In this document: positions 1 to 6,286 of the stretch, in pieces | Layout: every line of letters starts with the position of its first letter | Numbering within the stretch: position 1 is the first letter of the stretch | Assembly: GCA_027083075.1 (NCBI GenBank) | Contig: JALWQQ010000066.1 | Span: 1 to 7,418, forward strand | Source: Campylobacteraceae bacterium | GTDB lineage: Bacteria > Campylobacterota > Campylobacteria > Campylobacterales > Sulfurovaceae | DNA length: 7,418 nucleotides | Direction of reading: 5' to 3' | Program-made: the position numbers and the translations under genes | Notes under the pieces: generated by a model | Databases searched by the model: none | What the model was told of the DNA's origin: nothing | The model's input: the letters and a program-made list of their open reading frames with translations, nothing else

Positions 1-1505
1 GTATGGACGGCAACGACTTCTCCGTGTGGTCGATCTTACCGCCTTATAATAACCTGCATGCGCAACTGCATGATCTTGGCAACAGGCGTTTGATCACAAG
101 CGGTGTTGTCTTGACCTATGAGGCAACGACAGGAACGGATGGCAAGATCAATAGTAAAAGCGCTACAAAGACCAACTTCTGGCAGTATAGCGACAAGCTC
201 TTCCCGGGATCCAACCTGCAACCTGATGTCGGGTTAGCAGGAAATAAGACGCCGGGTACGACACCGCAACCGCTTACATTCAATGCAACACACCAATGGT
301 GGGAGGCCGAAGGTATCCCGTTGACACCCTACAATGACGACGGTAGTAAAAACTACTATCCGCTTGTAAAGGTGACGGCAAAAGATATGCAGGGCAATGT
401 CTTGGCTACGGCAAAGGTGGTATTGCCTATTAGCGATGAGATGGATTGCAAAAAGTGTCATGCCAGCAATTCGGGCGTGACGGCAGCCAGACCATCAGCC
501 GGCTGGGTTGACATGAACGATAGCGAAAAGGATTTCAAGTACAATGTACTACGCTTACATGACGAGCGCATCCCCAATGCCGTAAGTGCTCACATCGCCG
601 ATCTGAAAAAGGCGGGTTACGATTATAATACTACGGGACTTGAAGCGACGGCAAGGACGGGTACGCCGATCCTTTGTGCGGCGTGCCATAGCTCCAATGC
701 TTTGCCGGGCACGGGAGTGCCGGGAGTGAAACCATTTACGGAAGCAATGCATGGCTTTCATGCTCATGTGATCAATCCGGACAACAATATGAGCTTGAAC
801 AATATCGCCAACAGAAGCGCTTGTTATATGTGTCACCCGGGCGCGACTACCAACTGTTTGCGTGGCGCAATGGGAGATCGTAAAGATAGCAATGGCAATA
901 ATATTATGCAGTGTCAAAGCTGTCACGGTAAGATGAGCGATGTGGGCAACCCCACGCGTAACGGATGGTTTGACGAGCCTAATTGTCAGGCGTGTCACCA
1001 AGGAAGCACGGTCTATACCTCGGCGATCGATCCGAGAACCCATACGCTTAGACACGCCGTCGATACCCGTTTTGCCACCAACCCGGATACGCCTGCACAA
1101 GGTGTAAGCCTCTATCGCTTTAGCAGGGGTCACGGTGGATTGCAGTGCGAGGCGTGCCATGGAAGTCCCCATGCGATCTATCCTGCGCATACGGCAGATA
1201 ATCTCTTGGCTCAAGGGATCCAAGGTCACGCAGGCGCGATCGGTGAGTGTAGTGCATGTCACAATAGCGTGCCCAACACCGTTAGCGGCGGTCCTCACGG
1301 CATGCACCCGGTCGGATGGGTCTATGGCCACCAAGCACCTGCCGGATATAATCTCCAAGCGTGTGCGGCATGTCACGGAAGCACTTATAGGGGTACGCCG
1401 CTTTCAAGAATGTTTACGGATCGTACGATGCTCGGAAGAGTCTTTAAGAAAGGACATCAGGTCTCTTGCTACGACTGCCATAACGGTCCGTACGGGGGCG
1501 AATAA
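1..1505 (+). CDS. Multiheme c-type cytochrome, C-terminal part (5' end outside window)
   Basis: The frame is open from the left edge to a TAA at 1503-1505. An ATG at 3 exists, but the protein begins mid-domain with no signal peptide, so the gene almost certainly starts upstream. Counting from that ATG, residues 1-145 are a haem-free, beta-rich region, followed by nine CXXCH haem-attachment motifs at about residues 149, 225, 274, 304, 328, 382, 416, 454 and 489. Additional histidines between them could be distal ligands. Such proteins are exported, receive haem covalently in the periplasm, and act as electron conduits in the periplasm or at the outer membrane, in anaerobic respiration or extracellular electron transfer. 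The haem-free lead (with WWEAEGIPLTPY and LPISDEMDCKKCH) resembles cytochromes I associate with Geobacter-like Deltaproteobacteria, recalled rather than searched. Electron acceptor and localisation are unknown. The last haem motif is only seven residues from the C-terminus, which ends NGPYGGE. Confidence 0.93.
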   Translation, partial: MDGNDFSVWSILPPYNNLHAQLHDLGNRRLITSGVVLTYEATTGTDGKINSKSATKTNFWQYSDKLFPGSNLQPDVGLAGNKTPGTTPQPLTFNATHQWWEAEGIPLTPYNDDGSKNYYPLVKVTAKDMQGNVLATAKVVLPISDEMDCKKCHASNSGVTAARPSAGWVDMNDSEKDFKYNVLRLHDERIPNAVSAHIADLKKAGYDYNTTGLEATARTGTPILCAACHSSNALPGTGVPGVKPFTEAMHGFHAHVINPDNNMSLNNIANRSACYMCHPGATTNCLRGAMGDRKDSNGNNIMQCQSCHGKMSDVGNPTRNGWFDEPNCQACHQGSTVYTSAIDPRTHTLRHAVDTRFATNPDTPAQGVSLYRFSRGHGGLQCEACHGSPHAIYPAHTADNLLAQGIQGHAGAIGECSACHNSVPNTVSGGPHGMHPVGWVYGHQAPAGYNLQACAACHGSTYRGTPLSRMFTDRTMLGRVFKKGHQVSCYDCHNGPYGGE

Positions 1506-1602: not shown

Positions 1603-1648
1603 CATTAACATTTCGCTAACAAATCGCTTACGAAGATTATCTTATACT
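1603..1648 (+). promoter_or_regulatory. Promoter P1 with tandem 11-bp-spaced heptamers (OmpR/PhoB-type site)
   Basis: Two heptamers, CGCTAAC (1614-1620) and CGCTTAC (1625-1631), lie in direct orientation with starts 11 bp apart. A weaker third, CATTAAC (1603-1609), sits another 11 bp upstream. Exactly 11 bp after the last heptamer comes TATACT (1643-1648), a good -10 box; no -35 box is present, its place being taken by the heptamers. Seven-base direct repeats with four-base spacers match the known binding mode of PhoB/OmpR-family regulators at activator-dependent promoters. The predicted transcript starts near 1655 and leads into micro-ORF 1. Promoter P2 at 1942-1987 has the same layout base for base in spacing. 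Confidence 0.7.
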
Positions 1649-1710: not shown

Positions 1711-1873
1711 AGGGAGGGTAAGAATGCAGATGACATATTGTCTATTGTGCGGATCGAAGGGCGGTTAGTTATTCGCCCTCGATCCGCTGTTGCCCCAAGA
1801 ACCCGAAGACGCAAAAAAAGAGATTCCCCCTACCTCCCTTTTTCCTGATACTGTCGGGATCTTGGTGGCAACA
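1711..1873 (+). ncRNA. Structured RNA element, copy 1 (contains micro-ORF 1)
   Basis: In order, the element holds a strong Shine-Dalgarno AGGGAGGG (1711-1718), a 14-codon ORF, a hairpin and a long stem. In the hairpin, GGATCGA (1751-1757) and GGGCG (1759-1763) pair with CGCCC (1774-1778) and TCGATCC (1779-1785), with A1758 bulged and the TAG stop in the loop. The long stem stacks three helices: TGTTGCC/GGCAACA (1788-1794/1867-1873), CCAAG/CTTGG (1795-1799/1861-1865) and CCCGA/TCGGG (1802-1806/1854-1858), 17 pairs in all. The 47-base apical region carries AAAAGAGA, TTCCCCCTA and then C/U-rich sequence. CCTCCCT (1833-1839) in that loop is complementary to AGGGAGG of the element's own ribosome-binding site. 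A second copy at 2627-2793 keeps the architecture. It could be a dual-function RNA, a cis-acting leader or a 3' stabiliser. No known family is recognised. Confidence 0.65.
1724..1768 (+). CDS. Micro-ORF 1, 14-residue Cys-pair peptide (MQMTYCLLCGSKGG)
   Basis: The start ATG at 1724 lies five bases after AGGGAGGG, an ideal ribosome-binding site; a second in-frame ATG at 1730 would sit too far away. The product has a CXXC pair, CLLCG, reminiscent of a rubredoxin or zinc-knuckle half-site, and ends in Gly-Gly before TAG. It has no signal peptide or membrane segment. The case for translation is comparative: the paralogous ORF at 2640 encodes the same last ten residues although codons differ at Tyr (TAT/TAC), Leu (CTA/CTG), Leu (TTG/CTT) and Lys (AAG/AAA). 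It is expressed from promoter P1 with no other gene in front of it. It could be a sensing leader peptide, a metal- or thiol-reactive peptide, or a peptide precursor; the sequence does not decide. Function unknown. Confidence 0.7.
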   Translation: MQMTYCLLCGSKGG

Positions 1874-1941
1874 ACTTACTATATAATTATTTAGTTTAAA
1901 TATTTTTTATAATTCGGGTATTTTGATAATAATTTATTATA
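1874..1941. other. AT-rich intergenic stretch upstream of promoter P2
   Basis: Between the end of RNA element 1 and the P2 heptamers lies a strongly A/T-rich segment with runs such as TATTTTTTATAATT. No ORF with a ribosome-binding site and no hairpin-plus-T-tract terminator is evident, so P1 transcripts may read through. It may serve as an UP-like element for P2 or as a curved spacer. The first ~20 bases after the stem (AACTTACTATATAATTATTT) still resemble the sequence after copy 2 (AACTTTACAATATTTATGG). Confidence 0.4.
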
Positions 1942-1987
1942 CCGTTTCGTTGCGCTAACACTGCGCTTACACGCAATATCGTATACT
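1942..1987 (+). promoter_or_regulatory. Promoter P2 with tandem 11-bp-spaced heptamers (OmpR/PhoB-type site)
   Basis: CGCTAAC (1953-1959) and CGCTTAC (1964-1970) have starts 11 bp apart, with a degenerate third heptamer CCGTTTC (1942-1948) in register. TATACT (1982-1987) follows after exactly 11 bp. Transcription would begin near 1994, giving a leader of about 26 bases before the dihaem lipoprotein ATG at 2020, and would include micro-ORF 2. The heptamers and -10 box match P1, while the four-base spacers (ACTG versus AAAT) and the 11-bp gap sequence differ, as expected for functional sites rather than a recent duplication. The response regulator encoded at 3394 is the obvious candidate activator; this is inference from proximity and site type. 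Confidence 0.72.
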
Positions 1988-2019
1988 TACATAAGGCTTA
2001 ACAAAAAAAGGGTATTGAG

Positions 2020-2628
2020 ATGAAAAAAAGATTGATTAACATGGTTTTGGGATGCACGGTATTATTTTCCTTGTGTGGATGCGGTACGGGCATCAACGGC
2101 GTTGGCGGCTTCGAAGGTAGCGAGGGTGGCTTCGAAGGTAGCGAGGGTGGATACTACCCCGGCGGAACGTCACAAAGCGGGCAAACAGGAACGACCGGCA
2201 ACAGTTCGACACAAGCGGGCGCAGGGCTTTTGGTTCACAATCAAGGTCGAAACTGTCTCTCTTGTCATAGCAATCGCTTCGGTGCTGCAGGTACCATCTT
2301 TACAAAGAAAAATGCACAAGACGGCGACGCGGCATCTGCGGCAAGTTCTGCATATACGATCGAGCTTGTGTCCGATAAGGGTACGAAGATACGCTTTGCC
2401 AAGGCGTGGAACGGCACCGGCAATCGCTATGCTTACCCTACGGCAGTACAAAACATAGCCTATTTTACGCCACAAGTTGTCAATACCGCTACCGGTCAAG
2501 TGGTCAACAGATCCAGATATCAGCATGATGCTAATCGCTTTGCTTGCAACCGGTGTCATACCGCAACGGGAGCCAACGGTGCACCGGGGAGGGTTGTAAA
2601 TTATAACTATTACAATCAACAACTCTAA
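2020..2628 (+). CDS. Dihaem c-type cytochrome lipoprotein
   Basis: This 202-residue protein has a lipoprotein signal (MKKR, hydrophobic core, lipobox L-C-G-C with acylated Cys21), so it is exported and anchored in a membrane by lipid. A Gly/Ser/Thr-rich linker (residues 22-70) contains two perfect GFEGSEG repeats. Two haem-binding motifs follow, CLSCH at 79-83 and CNRCH at 176-180, the second near the C-terminus. The start is supported by AAGGG (2008-2012) seven bases upstream. Small dihaem lipoproteins of this type usually shuttle electrons between the inner membrane or periplasm and larger outer-membrane cytochromes, so a partnership with the multiheme cytochrome upstream is plausible but unproven. 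It is read from promoter P2, and its TAA stop overlaps the Shine-Dalgarno of micro-ORF 2, suggesting the two are co-transcribed and perhaps coupled in translation. No named family is recognised. Confidence 0.88.
   Translation: MKKRLINMVLGCTVLFSLCGCGTGINGVGGFEGSEGGFEGSEGGYYPGGTSQSGQTGTTGNSSTQAGAGLLVHNQGRNCLSCHSNRFGAAGTIFTKKNAQDGDAASAASSAYTIELVSDKGTKIRFAKAWNGTGNRYAYPTAVQNIAYFTPQVVNTATGQVVNRSRYQHDANRFACNRCHTATGANGAPGRVVNYNYYNQQL
2107..2148 (+). repeat. Perfect 2 x 21-bp tandem repeat inside the lipoprotein gene
   Basis: Two identical 21-base units (2107-2127 and 2128-2148) encode GFEGSEG twice in the linker between the lipid anchor and the first haem domain. Identity at the DNA level implies recent duplication or ongoing slippage. 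Each unit keeps the frame, so copy number would change linker length without breaking the protein. Confidence 0.95.
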
Positions 2629-2793
2629 GGAGGGCTCATATGAAAAAGAGCTACTGTCTGCTTTGCGGATCGAAAGGCGGTTAGGCGTCTGTTTCGATCC
2701 GCTGTTGTCACACCGTGGTATCACATTGTGAAAAGAGAATTCCCCCTATCTTCCTTTCTTCCCCTCCTGTGGTGCGCGCGGTGACTGACAACA
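2627..2793 (+). ncRNA. Structured RNA element, copy 2 (contains micro-ORF 2)
   Basis: It has the same order as copy 1. The Shine-Dalgarno AAGGAGGG (2627-2634) overlaps the lipoprotein stop. The hairpin pairs GGATCGAAA (2667-2675) with TTTCGATCC (2692-2700), with an inner AGGCG/CGTCT option, and the TAG stop lies in the loop. The long stem consists of TGTTGTC/GACAACA (2703-2709/2787-2793), CACCG/CGGTG (2711-2715/2779-2783) and ATCAC/GTGGT (2720-2724/2769-2773). The outer helix differs from copy 1 by a compensatory C-G to T-A change, and the two inner helices differ in sequence but keep pairing. The apical region retains AAAAGAGA and TTCCCCCTA, the latter starting about 57 bases after TAG in both copies. 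CCCTCCT (2762-2768) is complementary to AGGAGGG of its own ribosome-binding site. It lies between the cytochrome lipoprotein and the PAP2/two-component cluster. Confidence 0.65.
2640..2684 (+). CDS. Micro-ORF 2, 14-residue Cys-pair peptide (MKKSYCLLCGSKGG)
   Basis: The ATG is five bases after AAGGAGGG, the same spacing as in micro-ORF 1. The product is the same length as micro-ORF 1, identical over the last ten residues, with Ser for Thr at position 4 and two Lys at positions 2-3. Tyr, both Leu and Lys use different synonymous codons from micro-ORF 1, while the codons falling in the hairpin arm (GGA TCG, GGC GGT) are unchanged, as expected if both peptide and RNA are constrained. It begins 11 bases after the dihaem lipoprotein stop, so it should share the P2 transcript. 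There is no signal peptide; the CXXCG could bind a metal or form a disulfide. Function unknown. Confidence 0.7.
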   Translation: MKKSYCLLCGSKGG

Positions 2794-3393: not shown

Positions 3394-4020
3394 ATGAGGA
3401 TACTACTACTGGAAGACGATCGGATGCTTTCCGAAACCATTGCGTACCTTTTAGAGAGCGAAGGATATACGGTCGAGACGGTCTACTCCGTCGAGGAGGC
3501 GGAGAATGCGACATTCGATGCGCACTACGATCTCTATCTTTTCGATATCAACCTGAACGACGGCAGCGGTTTAAGGCTGCTCGAGTCGCTACGCAATGCC
3601 GAGGACGAGACACCGACGATCTTTATTACTGCTTTGCAGGACATTAAAACCATAGAGGAGAGCTTCAAGCTCGGAGCAATCGACTATATTAAAAAGCCCT
3701 TCGAGCCTGAGGAGTTGCTTATCCGTGTGCGTGCAAAATTTACACAAGATCTGCTACACTACGGTGATGTCAGCTACGATCCGAAAAACGAGATCGTGCG
3801 TAAAAACGGTAGGGTGGTCAATCTCGGATCGGTGCAGATGGCGGTTTTTGTCGAGCTCTTAAAGCACTGCGGCGAGGTGGTCGGCAAAGAGCGGCTCTAC
3901 GACTGTTTGGAGTACGGCTCCGATAGTGCATTGCGCGTTGCCATCAGTAAGATCAAGCAGCGACTCGATGTCAATGTGCGCAATATACGCGGTAAAGGAT
4001 ATATGCTTGAAGCACTATGA
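3394..4020 (+). CDS. OmpR/PhoB-family response regulator
   Basis: This is a 208-residue two-domain regulator. The receiver domain (1-115) shows the acidic pocket E7-D8-D9, the phospho-acceptor D51 in LFDINL, the switch Thr at about 79 (FITA) and K101-P102. A winged-helix DNA-binding domain (about 122-208) ends in the typical wing, NIRGKGYMLE. It would be phosphorylated by the kinase encoded immediately downstream and bind tandem direct repeats as a dimer. The length is slightly short for the family (about 220-240) but complete. The start is three bases after the PAP2 stop with only a weak ribosome-binding site, suggesting translational coupling. The CGCTWAC heptamers at P1 and P2 are its best candidate targets; I see no such pair in front of its own operon, so autoregulation by the same site is not evident. 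Confidence 0.95.
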   Translation: MRILLLEDDRMLSETIAYLLESEGYTVETVYSVEEAENATFDAHYDLYLFDINLNDGSGLRLLESLRNAEDETPTIFITALQDIKTIEESFKLGAIDYIKKPFEPEELLIRVRAKFTQDLLHYGDVSYDPKNEIVRKNGRVVNLGSVQMAVFVELLKHCGEVVGKERLYDCLEYGSDSALRVAISKIKQRLDVNVRNIRGKGYMLEAL

Positions 4021-5062
4021 AAAAGAGGCGCTTCTTAAAAATTTCTTTCTCTTCTTTTTTCTTATGGAAGCGCTTGTAGTGCTTCTGTTTTGGGAGCTTT
4101 ACCGCGAGGCTAAAAGTGACTTCAATGACAAGCTTTTGCAGCGTATGGAACTTTGCAGCTATACGCTTGATTGTAAAGCATTCGGCTACGATTTTGTGCC
4201 GCTGGAGTACAAAAAGACCCATAAACTTATCGCTTCCAACGGTTATCGCGCCTATTTTCCGATTCCGGATTCGCAAAAATTTATGTTAGAGATTTCTTAT
4301 CCGATCGATCGCTATCGTGCGGCATTTGGAAAGCAGACGCAAAGACTCAAGATCGCCTTTGTCTTTGCCACGATCCTGTTAGCACTTATGGCATTTTTCT
4401 TTACCCTTTATGCGCTTAGACCTCTGCGAAATGCTCTGAGGCTCAATGACGAATTTGTCAAAGATATCTTGCACGATTTCAACACCCCGATCGCTGCGAC
4501 GAAGCTTAATATTGCCATTTTTCAGAAAGAGGGCGGCAAGAGCGAACGTATCGAGAAGGTCAAAAAAAGTATAGATCATCTGGTAATGTTGCAAGAAAAT
4601 CTCAAAAGTTTTCTGCTTCGTTTGCCTACACAGACCGAACCCGTTGACGTTGCGGCACTATTGCGACAACGCAGTCGTCATATTGCCATGCTCTATCCGG
4701 ACATCGATTTTGTCGATAAACTTGGAGAAAAAGAGTATCGACTGCAAACAAGTCGTGAGCTATTGATACGCATTTTTGACAATCTTTTGAGTAATGCGGC
4801 AAAATACAATAAAAAAAACGGTAAGGTTATAGTCGGACGAGACGGAAGTGTCTTGACGATCGAAGATACGGGTAAGGGGATCAAAGATACCGAAAAGGTA
4901 TTGCGTCGTTTTCAGAAAGAGCAGGAGAGGGGGATTGGCTTGGGATTGCATATCGTCTCCAAGCTTTGCGATGAGGTAAATATCAGGCTGGAAATCGCGT
5001 CCGAACCGGGTAAGGGTACTATTGTCAAGCTTGACTTTGCCGCCGTGGAGAGAGAGCGATGA
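4007..5062 (+). CDS. Membrane sensor histidine kinase
   Basis: I choose the TTG at 4007 because AAAGGA (3994-3999) lies seven bases upstream and it leaves an intact first membrane helix (MKHYEKEALLKNFFLFFF...). An in-frame ATG at 3926 would run deep inside the regulator gene, and ATG 4064 would cut the helix. This gives 351 residues overlapping the regulator by 14 bases. Layout: TM1 about 12-30, a periplasmic sensor of only about 80 residues, TM2 about 114-136, a dimerisation/phosphoacceptor helix with H156 in ILHDFNTP, and an ATPase domain with N box (DNLLSNAAKYN, 258-268), G1 (DTGKGI, about 287-292) and G2 (GIGLGL, 309-314). The HDFNTP form of the H box is one I associate with Campylobacterota kinases. 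Two cysteines, C50 and C57, in the periplasmic part could sense redox or metal; the signal is unknown. The stop overlaps the next start (ATGA). Confidence 0.93.
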   Translation: MKHYEKEALLKNFFLFFFLMEALVVLLFWELYREAKSDFNDKLLQRMELCSYTLDCKAFGYDFVPLEYKKTHKLIASNGYRAYFPIPDSQKFMLEISYPIDRYRAAFGKQTQRLKIAFVFATILLALMAFFFTLYALRPLRNALRLNDEFVKDILHDFNTPIAATKLNIAIFQKEGGKSERIEKVKKSIDHLVMLQENLKSFLLRLPTQTEPVDVAALLRQRSRHIAMLYPDIDFVDKLGEKEYRLQTSRELLIRIFDNLLSNAAKYNKKNGKVIVGRDGSVLTIEDTGKGIKDTEKVLRRFQKEQERGIGLGLHIVSKLCDEVNIRLEIASEPGKGTIVKLDFAAVERER

Positions 5063-5478
5063 TGCGTACCCTTTTGCTCTTTGCCGTTATCGTTTTGTCC
5101 TCTTATGCACAAAGCGCCATTGATCAGCAGATCGAAAAGATTCGTCACGCTTCGGCACAGGAGCGTTATAGGTTGATGAATGCTCTGAAAAAACATCTTG
5201 TCAACCTGCACAAACAAGAGAGACTTAAGGTGATAGAGAGGCTTAAAAAAGCGGTGATGAACGGCGGTGAAGAGAAGGGAACTGCGCTTTCCAAAGTCGA
5301 AAAAACGGCTGATGCGAAGCATAAGTCAAAAGATCCCGGTAAGATAGCCGTACCAAAGGGTGCTAAAAATACCACAACGATTGTCGAGCACGAAACCGTT
5401 TCGCACGAAATGCGTAGCGATATCGTCGAAAAGGAAGGTGGTCACGATGAACTTGAGCGAGAGGATAGAGATGAGTAG
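5059..5478 (+). CDS. Secreted lysine-rich helical protein of unknown function
   Basis: This 139-residue product starts within the kinase stop codon (ATGA overlap) behind a purine-rich GGAGAGAG. Residues 1-18 form a signal peptide (hydrophobic core LLLFAVIVL, probable cleavage after SYA), so it is periplasmic or exported. Residues 20-68 are charged and rich in Leu, Lys, Arg, Gln and Glu in helical spacing, suggesting an alpha-helical or coiled-coil segment. The rest (about 69-139) is low-complexity, hydrophilic and probably disordered. No cysteines or catalytic motifs are seen. Its position between the sensor kinase and an outer-membrane barrel suggests an envelope role, perhaps as an accessory to signal sensing; this is inference from context only. 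It overlaps the next gene by 32 bases. Confidence 0.75.
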   Translation: MMRTLLLFAVIVLSSYAQSAIDQQIEKIRHASAQERYRLMNALKKHLVNLHKQERLKVIERLKKAVMNGGEEKGTALSKVEKTADAKHKSKDPGKIAVPKGAKNTTTIVEHETVSHEMRSDIVEKEGGHDELEREDRDE

Positions 5479-6286
5479 TCGCATTGCTTTGTTTGTTGTA
5501 TTGTCTTTTTTGACAAGTGGTGCCGCGTTCGCTGCCGATCATGACCTTGACGGTGTACCCGATGCGATAGATAAGTGCCCCGATACGCCTTTTATGAATA
5601 CGGTCGATGCAAGCGGATGTACGGTGTCGGTACTGCTTTTGCCAAAAGATAGCGCTAATGATACGTTGATCGTTAAACTCGGATACGGCTATAGCCGTGA
5701 TGAAGAGCAAAATGAAAACGAGATCGACAAAAAGCATAGTGTGACCGTGCGTCTAAATTATTATCGTGACGACTGGCTCTTCTCGGCACGTACGGGCGGT
5801 TTGAGTTACGACAACCTGCATGCAACAAGCGATACGACGTTAAAGATTGCCAAGCGCTTCAAACCGATAAAAGATCTGCGTCTCTATCCCGGCTTTGCAC
5901 TAAAGTTTCCGACACGCAAACGACAAGGAAATCGCACCGATATCAAGTTCTACTTGAGTGCAAACTACTCGTTATCGTCCGATACGACGGTTTTCGGTGG
6001 CTATACCTATACCATCAATCGCGATGTCAACGATACACAGAGGCTCCAAAACCCTTCGACATTCTATCTCGGGCTGGGACACTTCTTTAGCGACACGTTT
6101 TATGCCGACTTTTCAGTCGATTTGACGCAGAGTATCTATGCAAATGTCCCGATCCATCATGTCGTTACCGCTTCGATCTTTTATCAGGTAACACCACGAC
6201 TCTATCTGACGAGCGAATATAGTCACGAGATCGATTCGCAGATTCACGACTCTCTCGGCTTTTCGATCGGGTACTATCTGTGGTAA
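5447..6286 (+). CDS. Outer-membrane beta-barrel protein with thrombospondin type-3-like calcium motif
   Basis: The preferred start is ATG 5447 behind AAGGAAGGTGG, giving 279 residues. ATG 5471 (behind GAGAGGA) is an equally workable start that gives a shorter signal peptide. Cleavage is predicted after GAAFA (residues 25-29). The mature protein opens with DHDLDGVPDAIDKCPDTP and ends that module at ASGC (Cys44 and Cys58 probably pair), the Asp-rich calcium-binding motif of thrombospondin type-3 repeats and OmpA-like linkers. Residues from about 70 to 279 show repeated amphipathic strands (KLGYGYSRD, SVTVRLNYYRDDWLFSART, FYLSANYSL, TVFGGYTYTI) typical of a barrel, ending GFSIGYYLW with a terminal aromatic residue suited to Bam insertion. 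No named porin family is recognised. As last gene of the PAP2/two-component cluster it may be a regulated envelope component or an input to the sensor; neither is shown. Confidence 0.85.
   Translation: MNLSERIEMSSRIALFVVLSFLTSGAAFAADHDLDGVPDAIDKCPDTPFMNTVDASGCTVSVLLLPKDSANDTLIVKLGYGYSRDEEQNENEIDKKHSVTVRLNYYRDDWLFSARTGGLSYDNLHATSDTTLKIAKRFKPIKDLRLYPGFALKFPTRKRQGNRTDIKFYLSANYSLSSDTTVFGGYTYTINRDVNDTQRLQNPSTFYLGLGHFFSDTFYADFSVDLTQSIYANVPIHHVVTASIFYQVTPRLYLTSEYSHEIDSQIHDSLGFSIGYYLW

Follow-up and report, generated by a model that had tools for sequence, protein, structure and literature searches.

A duplicated element with a CXXC micro-ORF and predicted C/U-rich-loop hairpins beside cytochrome genes of a Campylobacterota genome, tentatively read as a dual-function small RNA

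Several dual-function RNAs are known in which a peptide ORF and a pairing region are combined in one short RNA, among them SpfP on Spot 42, VcdRP and SgrS. Staphylococcal RNAIII has a peptide gene together with accessible UCCC motifs (PMC3861533), and one estimate puts the share of bacterial sRNAs that have a coding ORF at no less than about 10% (PMC5521070). CJnc190 of Campylobacter, which is described as reminiscent of Helicobacter RepG, represses ptmG by pairing of its C/U-rich loop with the G-rich ribosome site (PMC8687705). Also relevant are the copper-responsive CruR, which has 145 residues, is predicted to be exported with a signal peptide and has a C-terminal RAPP arrest motif (PMC9426467), and the leader peptides LeuL, TrpL and MetL of Campylobacter (PMC3847290, PMC11955535).

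The element discussed here lies in a window, by which we mean the whole stretch of 7,418 nucleotides that was analysed (contig JALWQQ010000066.1), from a Campylobacteraceae bacterium, and the gene content fits the attribution to the Campylobacterota. The source is a draft genome of 1.39 Mb that is 83% complete, and the element is known from two sequences of this one genome. A sequence-only reading of this DNA had pointed to a duplicated CXXC micropeptide. A free-standing family of such peptides is not supported: each of the two ORFs is the 5' part of a larger element of about 170 bases, present as two diverged copies, in which the ORF is followed by two predicted hairpins, H1 and H2, and no further copies of the peptide turned up in the genomes searched (see below). 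The similarity of the copies runs about 110 nt past the stop codons, where it shows less in the letters themselves than in the predicted RNA fold. The features of the two copies are:

1712 to 1718, forward strand: Shine-Dalgarno sequence GGGAGGG of ORF copy 1, read in the sequence
1724 to 1768, forward strand: ORF copy 1, MQMTYCLLCGSKGG and then a stop, from sequence and codon comparison
1749 to 1787, forward strand: predicted hairpin H1 of copy 1, -27.5 kcal/mol, none of 500 shuffles as stable
1789 to 1872, forward strand: predicted hairpin H2 of copy 1, GUUGCC...GGCAAC, -30.3 kcal/mol, none of 500 shuffles as stable
1823 to 1844, forward strand: C/U-rich apical region of copy 1, with AUUCCCCCUA at 1823-1832, from computed pairing probabilities
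2628 to 2634, forward strand: Shine-Dalgarno sequence AGGAGGG of ORF copy 2, read in the sequence, one base in common with the stop codon of the cytochrome gene
2640 to 2684, forward strand: ORF copy 2, MKKSYCLLCGSKGG and then a stop, from sequence and codon comparison
2665 to 2702, forward strand: predicted hairpin H1 of copy 2, -22.2 kcal/mol, none of 500 shuffles as stable
2704 to 2792, forward strand: predicted hairpin H2 of copy 2, GUUGUC...GACAAC, upper stems unlike those of copy 1, -31.3 kcal/mol, none of 500 shuffles as stable
2739 to 2762, forward strand: C/U-rich apical region of copy 2, with AUUCCCCCUA at 2739-2748, from computed pairing probabilities

With regard to the ORFs themselves the earlier reading holds up well. 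Both have 14 residues, with a CXXC motif seen in the translations and the last 10 residues identical, and the strong ribosome sites are at equal distance, as GGAGGG (1713-1718 and 2629-2634) ends 5 bases 5' of the ATG in each case. The 33-nt tail (codons 5-14 and the stop) has 5 differences between the copies, all of them synonymous as had been claimed (one in the Tyr codon, one and two in the Leu codons and one in the Lys codon), and the residue is changed at every one of codons 2-4. In simulations of random substitution an all-synonymous tail has a probability of about 0.0009-0.0010, and the 13 nt of the tail that lie 5' of H1, with 4 differences, give about 0.0016-0.0026, both being post hoc figures for two sequences. 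Among the 175 short ORFs (8-50 aa, both strands) in the window the longest common C-terminus has 10 residues, and 60 dinucleotide shuffles of the window gave no more than 5, again a post hoc comparison involving two sequences. The claim of selection on the peptide survives in weakened form: the signal is present (chance about 0.001), but codons 9-14 double as a hairpin arm and are constrained as such, so that codons 5-8 alone are independent evidence for the peptide. From this post hoc comparison of two sequences the ORF appears to be selected as a peptide, as one would look for in a dual-function RNA.

Codons 9-14 form the 5' arm of H1 in the predicted fold, with the stop codon in its apical part, and the H1 arms are nearly identical between copies. 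H2 is predicted to be a long hairpin that starts with GUUGYC, ends with GRCAAC and has a C/U-rich loop on top. The whole-element folding z-scores are -5.42 for copy 1 and -4.65 for copy 2, with none of 200 shuffles as stable. In H1 the change of the lysine codon from AAG to AAA is compensated by a change of the partner from C to U, which turns a G-C pair into A-U, and in the lower part of H2 one pair is C-G in copy 1 and U-A in copy 2. In sequence the upper H2 stems differ such that no pair-by-pair match is possible, yet both fold. The loop is better kept: AUUCCCCCUA is invariant in both copies, and over 1823-1844/2739-2760 the aligned copies differ by C/U exchanges only, whereas the upper stems diverge. 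UUCCCCCUA has a computed probability of about 1.0 of being unpaired in both copies, and the U-run after it is partly paired in copy 1. The model is thus of a stable hairpin that would expose a C/U-rich loop, as in RNAs of the RepG/CJnc190 type. A search of Rfam 15 gave 3 matches at E 1.6-4.9, all under the gathering score and none across the ORFs or hairpins.

Coding explanations of the 3' part were considered and rejected by eye. The H2 loop has an SPYLPF frame with synonymous changes in both copies, and was dropped on finding a stop just ahead in copy 2 and no start codon; for read-through of the UAG each copy has an open frame, but the two frames slip out of register with each other and there is no evident common protein. 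The loop region (1811-1846 / 2731-2762) also resembles stretches of two other genes (L003 and L008) that read KE(N)SPYL, with 24 nt at 92% in its own genome and 28 nt at 96% in genome G041, possibly by chance. These genes use other frames, and we take the resemblance as coincidence, without claiming proof.

The setting of the two copies is given by the following features:

3 to 1505: multihaem c-type cytochrome gene, its start cut off in the window
1605 to 1648, forward strand: P1, a promoter-like stretch ahead of element copy 1, with TATACT behind three TTAACA/CTAACA/CTTAC repeats 11 nt apart
1952 to 1987, forward strand: P2, a promoter-like stretch ahead of the small cytochrome gene, with P1-type repeats and TATACT
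2020 to 2628, forward strand: small c-type cytochrome gene, lipoprotein-like, with two CXXCH, Pfam cytochrome matches below the curated cut-offs
3394 to 4020, forward strand: OmpR-type response regulator, Response_reg 1.8e-25, Trans_reg_C at 24.9 bits, just under the cut-off of 26.2

The other genes of the window are for PAP2, a histidine kinase, RuvA and MurJ. A repeat pattern written after P1 and P2 had been seen has 3 matches in the window, an overlapping pair at P1 and a single one at P2, and gave none in 200 mononucleotide shuffles. It is present at 7 of the 11 related loci scanned (L036 on contig C153, L023, L024, L025, L027, L029 and L031), the remainder (L026, L028, L030 and L034) giving no match, and on C153 it precedes a multihaem protein 92% identical to that of the window over the first 138 residues. 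This locus (G000:C153:2-418, against window 3-420) is a second contig end with the N-terminal part of a multihaem gene, and could be a paralog or strain variation that broke the assembly. In this family, TTAACA/CTAACA direct repeats 11 nt apart recur near cytochrome and SGTVPGT-type lipoprotein genes, often with a TATACT-like box behind them. The recurrent repeats probably serve the adjacent two-component system as operator, and the OmpR-type regulator is the likely binder of those in P1 and P2. To judge from sequence, a promoter-like region of its own precedes copy 1, and copy 2 would be carried along on the transcript of the cytochrome gene. The repeats of P1 are promoter-like, but a sigma-70 consensus scan lists neither P1 nor P2, its 3 hits being at chance level (shuffle mean 2.1), and no intrinsic terminator was found in 1500-2900, and for these reasons a discrete small RNA is no more than putative.

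Our preferred reading, which we put forward tentatively, is that each copy belongs to the local cytochrome regulon as a dual-function small RNA, similar to the sRNAs with a C/U-rich loop and with a peptide frame embedded in it. The neighbouring two-component regulator would switch on both elements, the ORF would be translated, and a ribosome reaching the stop codon would open H1. The C/U-rich loop of H2 would bind other messages by base pairing at their G-rich ribosome sites, and targets would thereby be silenced in trans. The peptide itself may act, perhaps by binding metal through its two cysteines; for the earlier suggestion that it could sense metal, haem or thiols, the CXXC spacing is the sole support in the sequence. 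It is doubtful whether one should go further and see a new RNA-peptide module, in which arrival at the stop codon would unzip one hairpin while its neighbour offers the C-rich loop, peptide and silencing being coupled in one 170-base unit that arose in a single lineage and was duplicated inside a cytochrome operon.

The element resembles RepG and CJnc190 in being a structured RNA with an unpaired C/U-rich loop, and the promoter-like region of copy 1 is comparable to the status of RepG as a separate gene (PMC8687705). It differs from them in that the loop hairpin comes after an ORF that has a strong ribosome site and in having two copies in one locus, and for the element no target was found in the searches described below and no sequence relation to these RNAs is shown. 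With the dual-function RNAs it has in common that one short RNA combines a peptide ORF with a region presumed to pair, and RNAIII too exposes UCCC motifs (PMC3861533). The dual-function RNAs differ from the element, whose peptide has 14 residues with a CXXC, in which H1 overlaps the end of the ORF and for which pairing is presumed. CruR (DUF2946) also has a CXXC in the product of an RNA with a C-rich, G-poor stretch, but in contrast to the 14-residue peptide, which has no RAPP, it is a predicted exported protein of 145 residues with that motif (PMC9426467). LeuL, TrpL and MetL share with the element a very short ORF and an adjacent hairpin (PMC3847290, PMC11955535), but the element has no single-codon run, is not upstream of a biosynthesis operon, and gave no terminator in our scan.

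Target pairing beyond the composition controls was not found in searches that covered the window genes, the start of the multihaem gene and one 9-base scan of the genome. Nine initiation regions and two loops make 18 pairs, and no target stands out in both controls, the start of the kinase gene being uncertain. A few low counts came from loop 1 with PAP2 (30 and 15 of 300 controls) and from loop 2, both with the gene at 5059 (99 and 2 of 300) and with that for the multihaem protein (19 and 35 of 300), but they are not convincing among 18 pairs. The exact 9-base complement of the exposed motif, TAGGGGGAA, has one trans site in the draft genome, against 10 matches for the reversed control pattern. 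This site (G000:C74:6682-6690, L040) is within a small inverted repeat in a leader-like stretch about 140 nt ahead of a gene that by eye is acetolactate-synthase-like, and it was rejected as a target because it is not at a ribosome site. For the loop and the element's own ribosome site, the two read by eye as AGGGAGG/CCUCCCU in copy 1 and AAGGAGG/CUUCCUU in copy 2 (ribosome site first), but shuffled loops pair as well (484 and 846 of 1000), and sequestration of the ribosome site by the H2 loop was dropped as specific evidence.

The strongest rival to a dual-function small RNA, though we think it rather unlikely, is a cis-acting leader in the manner of CruR, in which translation of the CXXC mini-ORF controls transcription or translation into the next gene, for example by Rho loading on the C-rich loop. 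The genes controlled would be the cytochrome gene after copy 1 and the PAP2 and two-component genes after copy 2. There is precedent in CruR, which joins a CXXC ORF to Rho termination (PMC9426467). Both elements are indeed upstream of a same-strand gene, copy 2 having the small cytochrome gene on one side and the PAP2 gene on the other. Like Rho sites, the pyrimidine loop is rich in C and poor in G, and the lack of an intrinsic terminator in 1500-2900 would allow read-through. However P2 provides a second promoter-like region between copy 1 and the cytochrome gene downstream, and H1 and H2 are independent in the folding computation, melting of H1 leaving H2 intact. In addition a nascent chain of 14 residues would still be within the ribosome tunnel, and could hardly sense metal at that stage.

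It is also possible, but in our view unlikely, that the peptide is the product that matters, the gene for a small cytoplasmic CXXC peptide having been duplicated in the regulon with hairpins that merely protect the mRNA or limit translation. The five synonymous tail differences, four of them outside the hairpin, and the strong ribosome sites at identical spacing are as expected for this. Against it, random drift rarely keeps H2 so stable: after random mutation to 62% identity, a rough figure as the MAFFT alignment misplaces the H2 stems, the fold was as stable as that of the other copy in 9 and 34 of 1000 trials. The loop letters are moreover kept while the stems change, which is beyond the needs of mere protection, and no relative of the peptide was found in the family, order and phylum genome searches or in a scan of peptide alignments. 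That scan gave 89 pattern matches and no confirmed relative, with a pattern made of residues 1-8, of which half are either variable or the start.

The genome searches used an RNA model, R1, built from the ORF and H1 of the two copies, with strict filters that distant relatives could escape, and samples of family (175), order (398) and phylum (397) genomes that overlap and include the element's own genome. Only this genome was matched in the family sample at E up to 0.05 and in the phylum sample at E up to 0.01. The order sample at E up to 0.05 gave 9 matched genomes, its own and 8 weak ones of 22.6-25.8 bits that were rejected when reading showed the peptide in none. Further copies with synonymous variation in related genomes, set beforehand as a test of the micropeptide reading, were thus sought in all three samples and none found. 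A DNA search of the draft genome with copy 1 gave the two copies and three further short matches, which were read and dropped, and copy 2 against 150 family genomes gave its own and 4 genomes with matches of 21-34 nt, in none of which the element was found on reading. The exact 20-base core was matched by no genome contig and no viral contig, in a set from which the window's own genome is possibly excluded. The peptide string was in 0 papers of the open-licence literature, and other literature searches, subscription papers being outside their coverage, showed nothing recognisable as the element. A match to the multihaem gene was not found in the one other genome of the genus, nor a 16S gene in the 3 draft genomes in which it was sought.

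Relatives of the small cytochrome were found in 11 of 174 other family genomes, at 12 loci, and none of these has a short CXXC ORF ending in GSKGG within the flanks fetched. The gap from the small cytochrome to the next same-strand ORF of more than 110 aa is 11-50 nt in 6 of the 8 loci that list one (L024, L025, L027, L028, L030 and L031), and 124 and 176 nt in L029 and L023, where the gap holds the promoter repeats; in the window it is 216 nt. As these cytochrome loci are without the element, it was either gained in this lineage or lost widely, and gain is the simpler reading.

A gain would also suit an element that acts as DNA, either what is left of a small palindromic mobile element that no longer moves or a pair of operators whose inverted repeat is recognised, and the near identity of the H1 arms is in keeping with this. 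We regard it as very unlikely, since there are only two copies in the draft genome, a search with copy 2 matched 3 plasmid records over 27 nt and none from phages, the 20-base core is in no viral contig, and a dead insertion is not expected to keep compensated stems and an ORF with synonymous changes only. Classical amino-acid attenuation was dropped, as the terminator scan and folding gave no mutually exclusive terminator and antiterminator, and a type I toxin-antitoxin system was dismissed by eye, the 14-residue peptide being too short for a membrane span; the sigma-70 consensus scan, in which P1 and P2 are likewise missed, showed no minus-strand promoter-like site in 1500-2900.

To our knowledge the small RNAs of Campylobacterota are known mainly from pathogens. 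If the dual-function reading is correct, a peptide-coding RNA with a C/U-rich loop would be tied to multihaem cytochromes, and a tiny ORF and an RNA structure would have been kept together through roughly 38% divergence. ORFs of such size fall below what gene callers report and the element is absent from Rfam, so that similar lineage-restricted modules may go unseen.

Elsewhere in the window, the ORF at 5444-6286, on the strand of the two-component genes, has a calcium-binding-like motif, DHDLDGVPDAIDKCPDTP, near its start and by eye has an outer-membrane look, with no Pfam match at E up to 0.001. In the small cytochrome gene there is a tandem 21-nt repeat at 2099-2140, 86% identical, which gives GGFEGSE twice behind the lipoprotein-type Cys.
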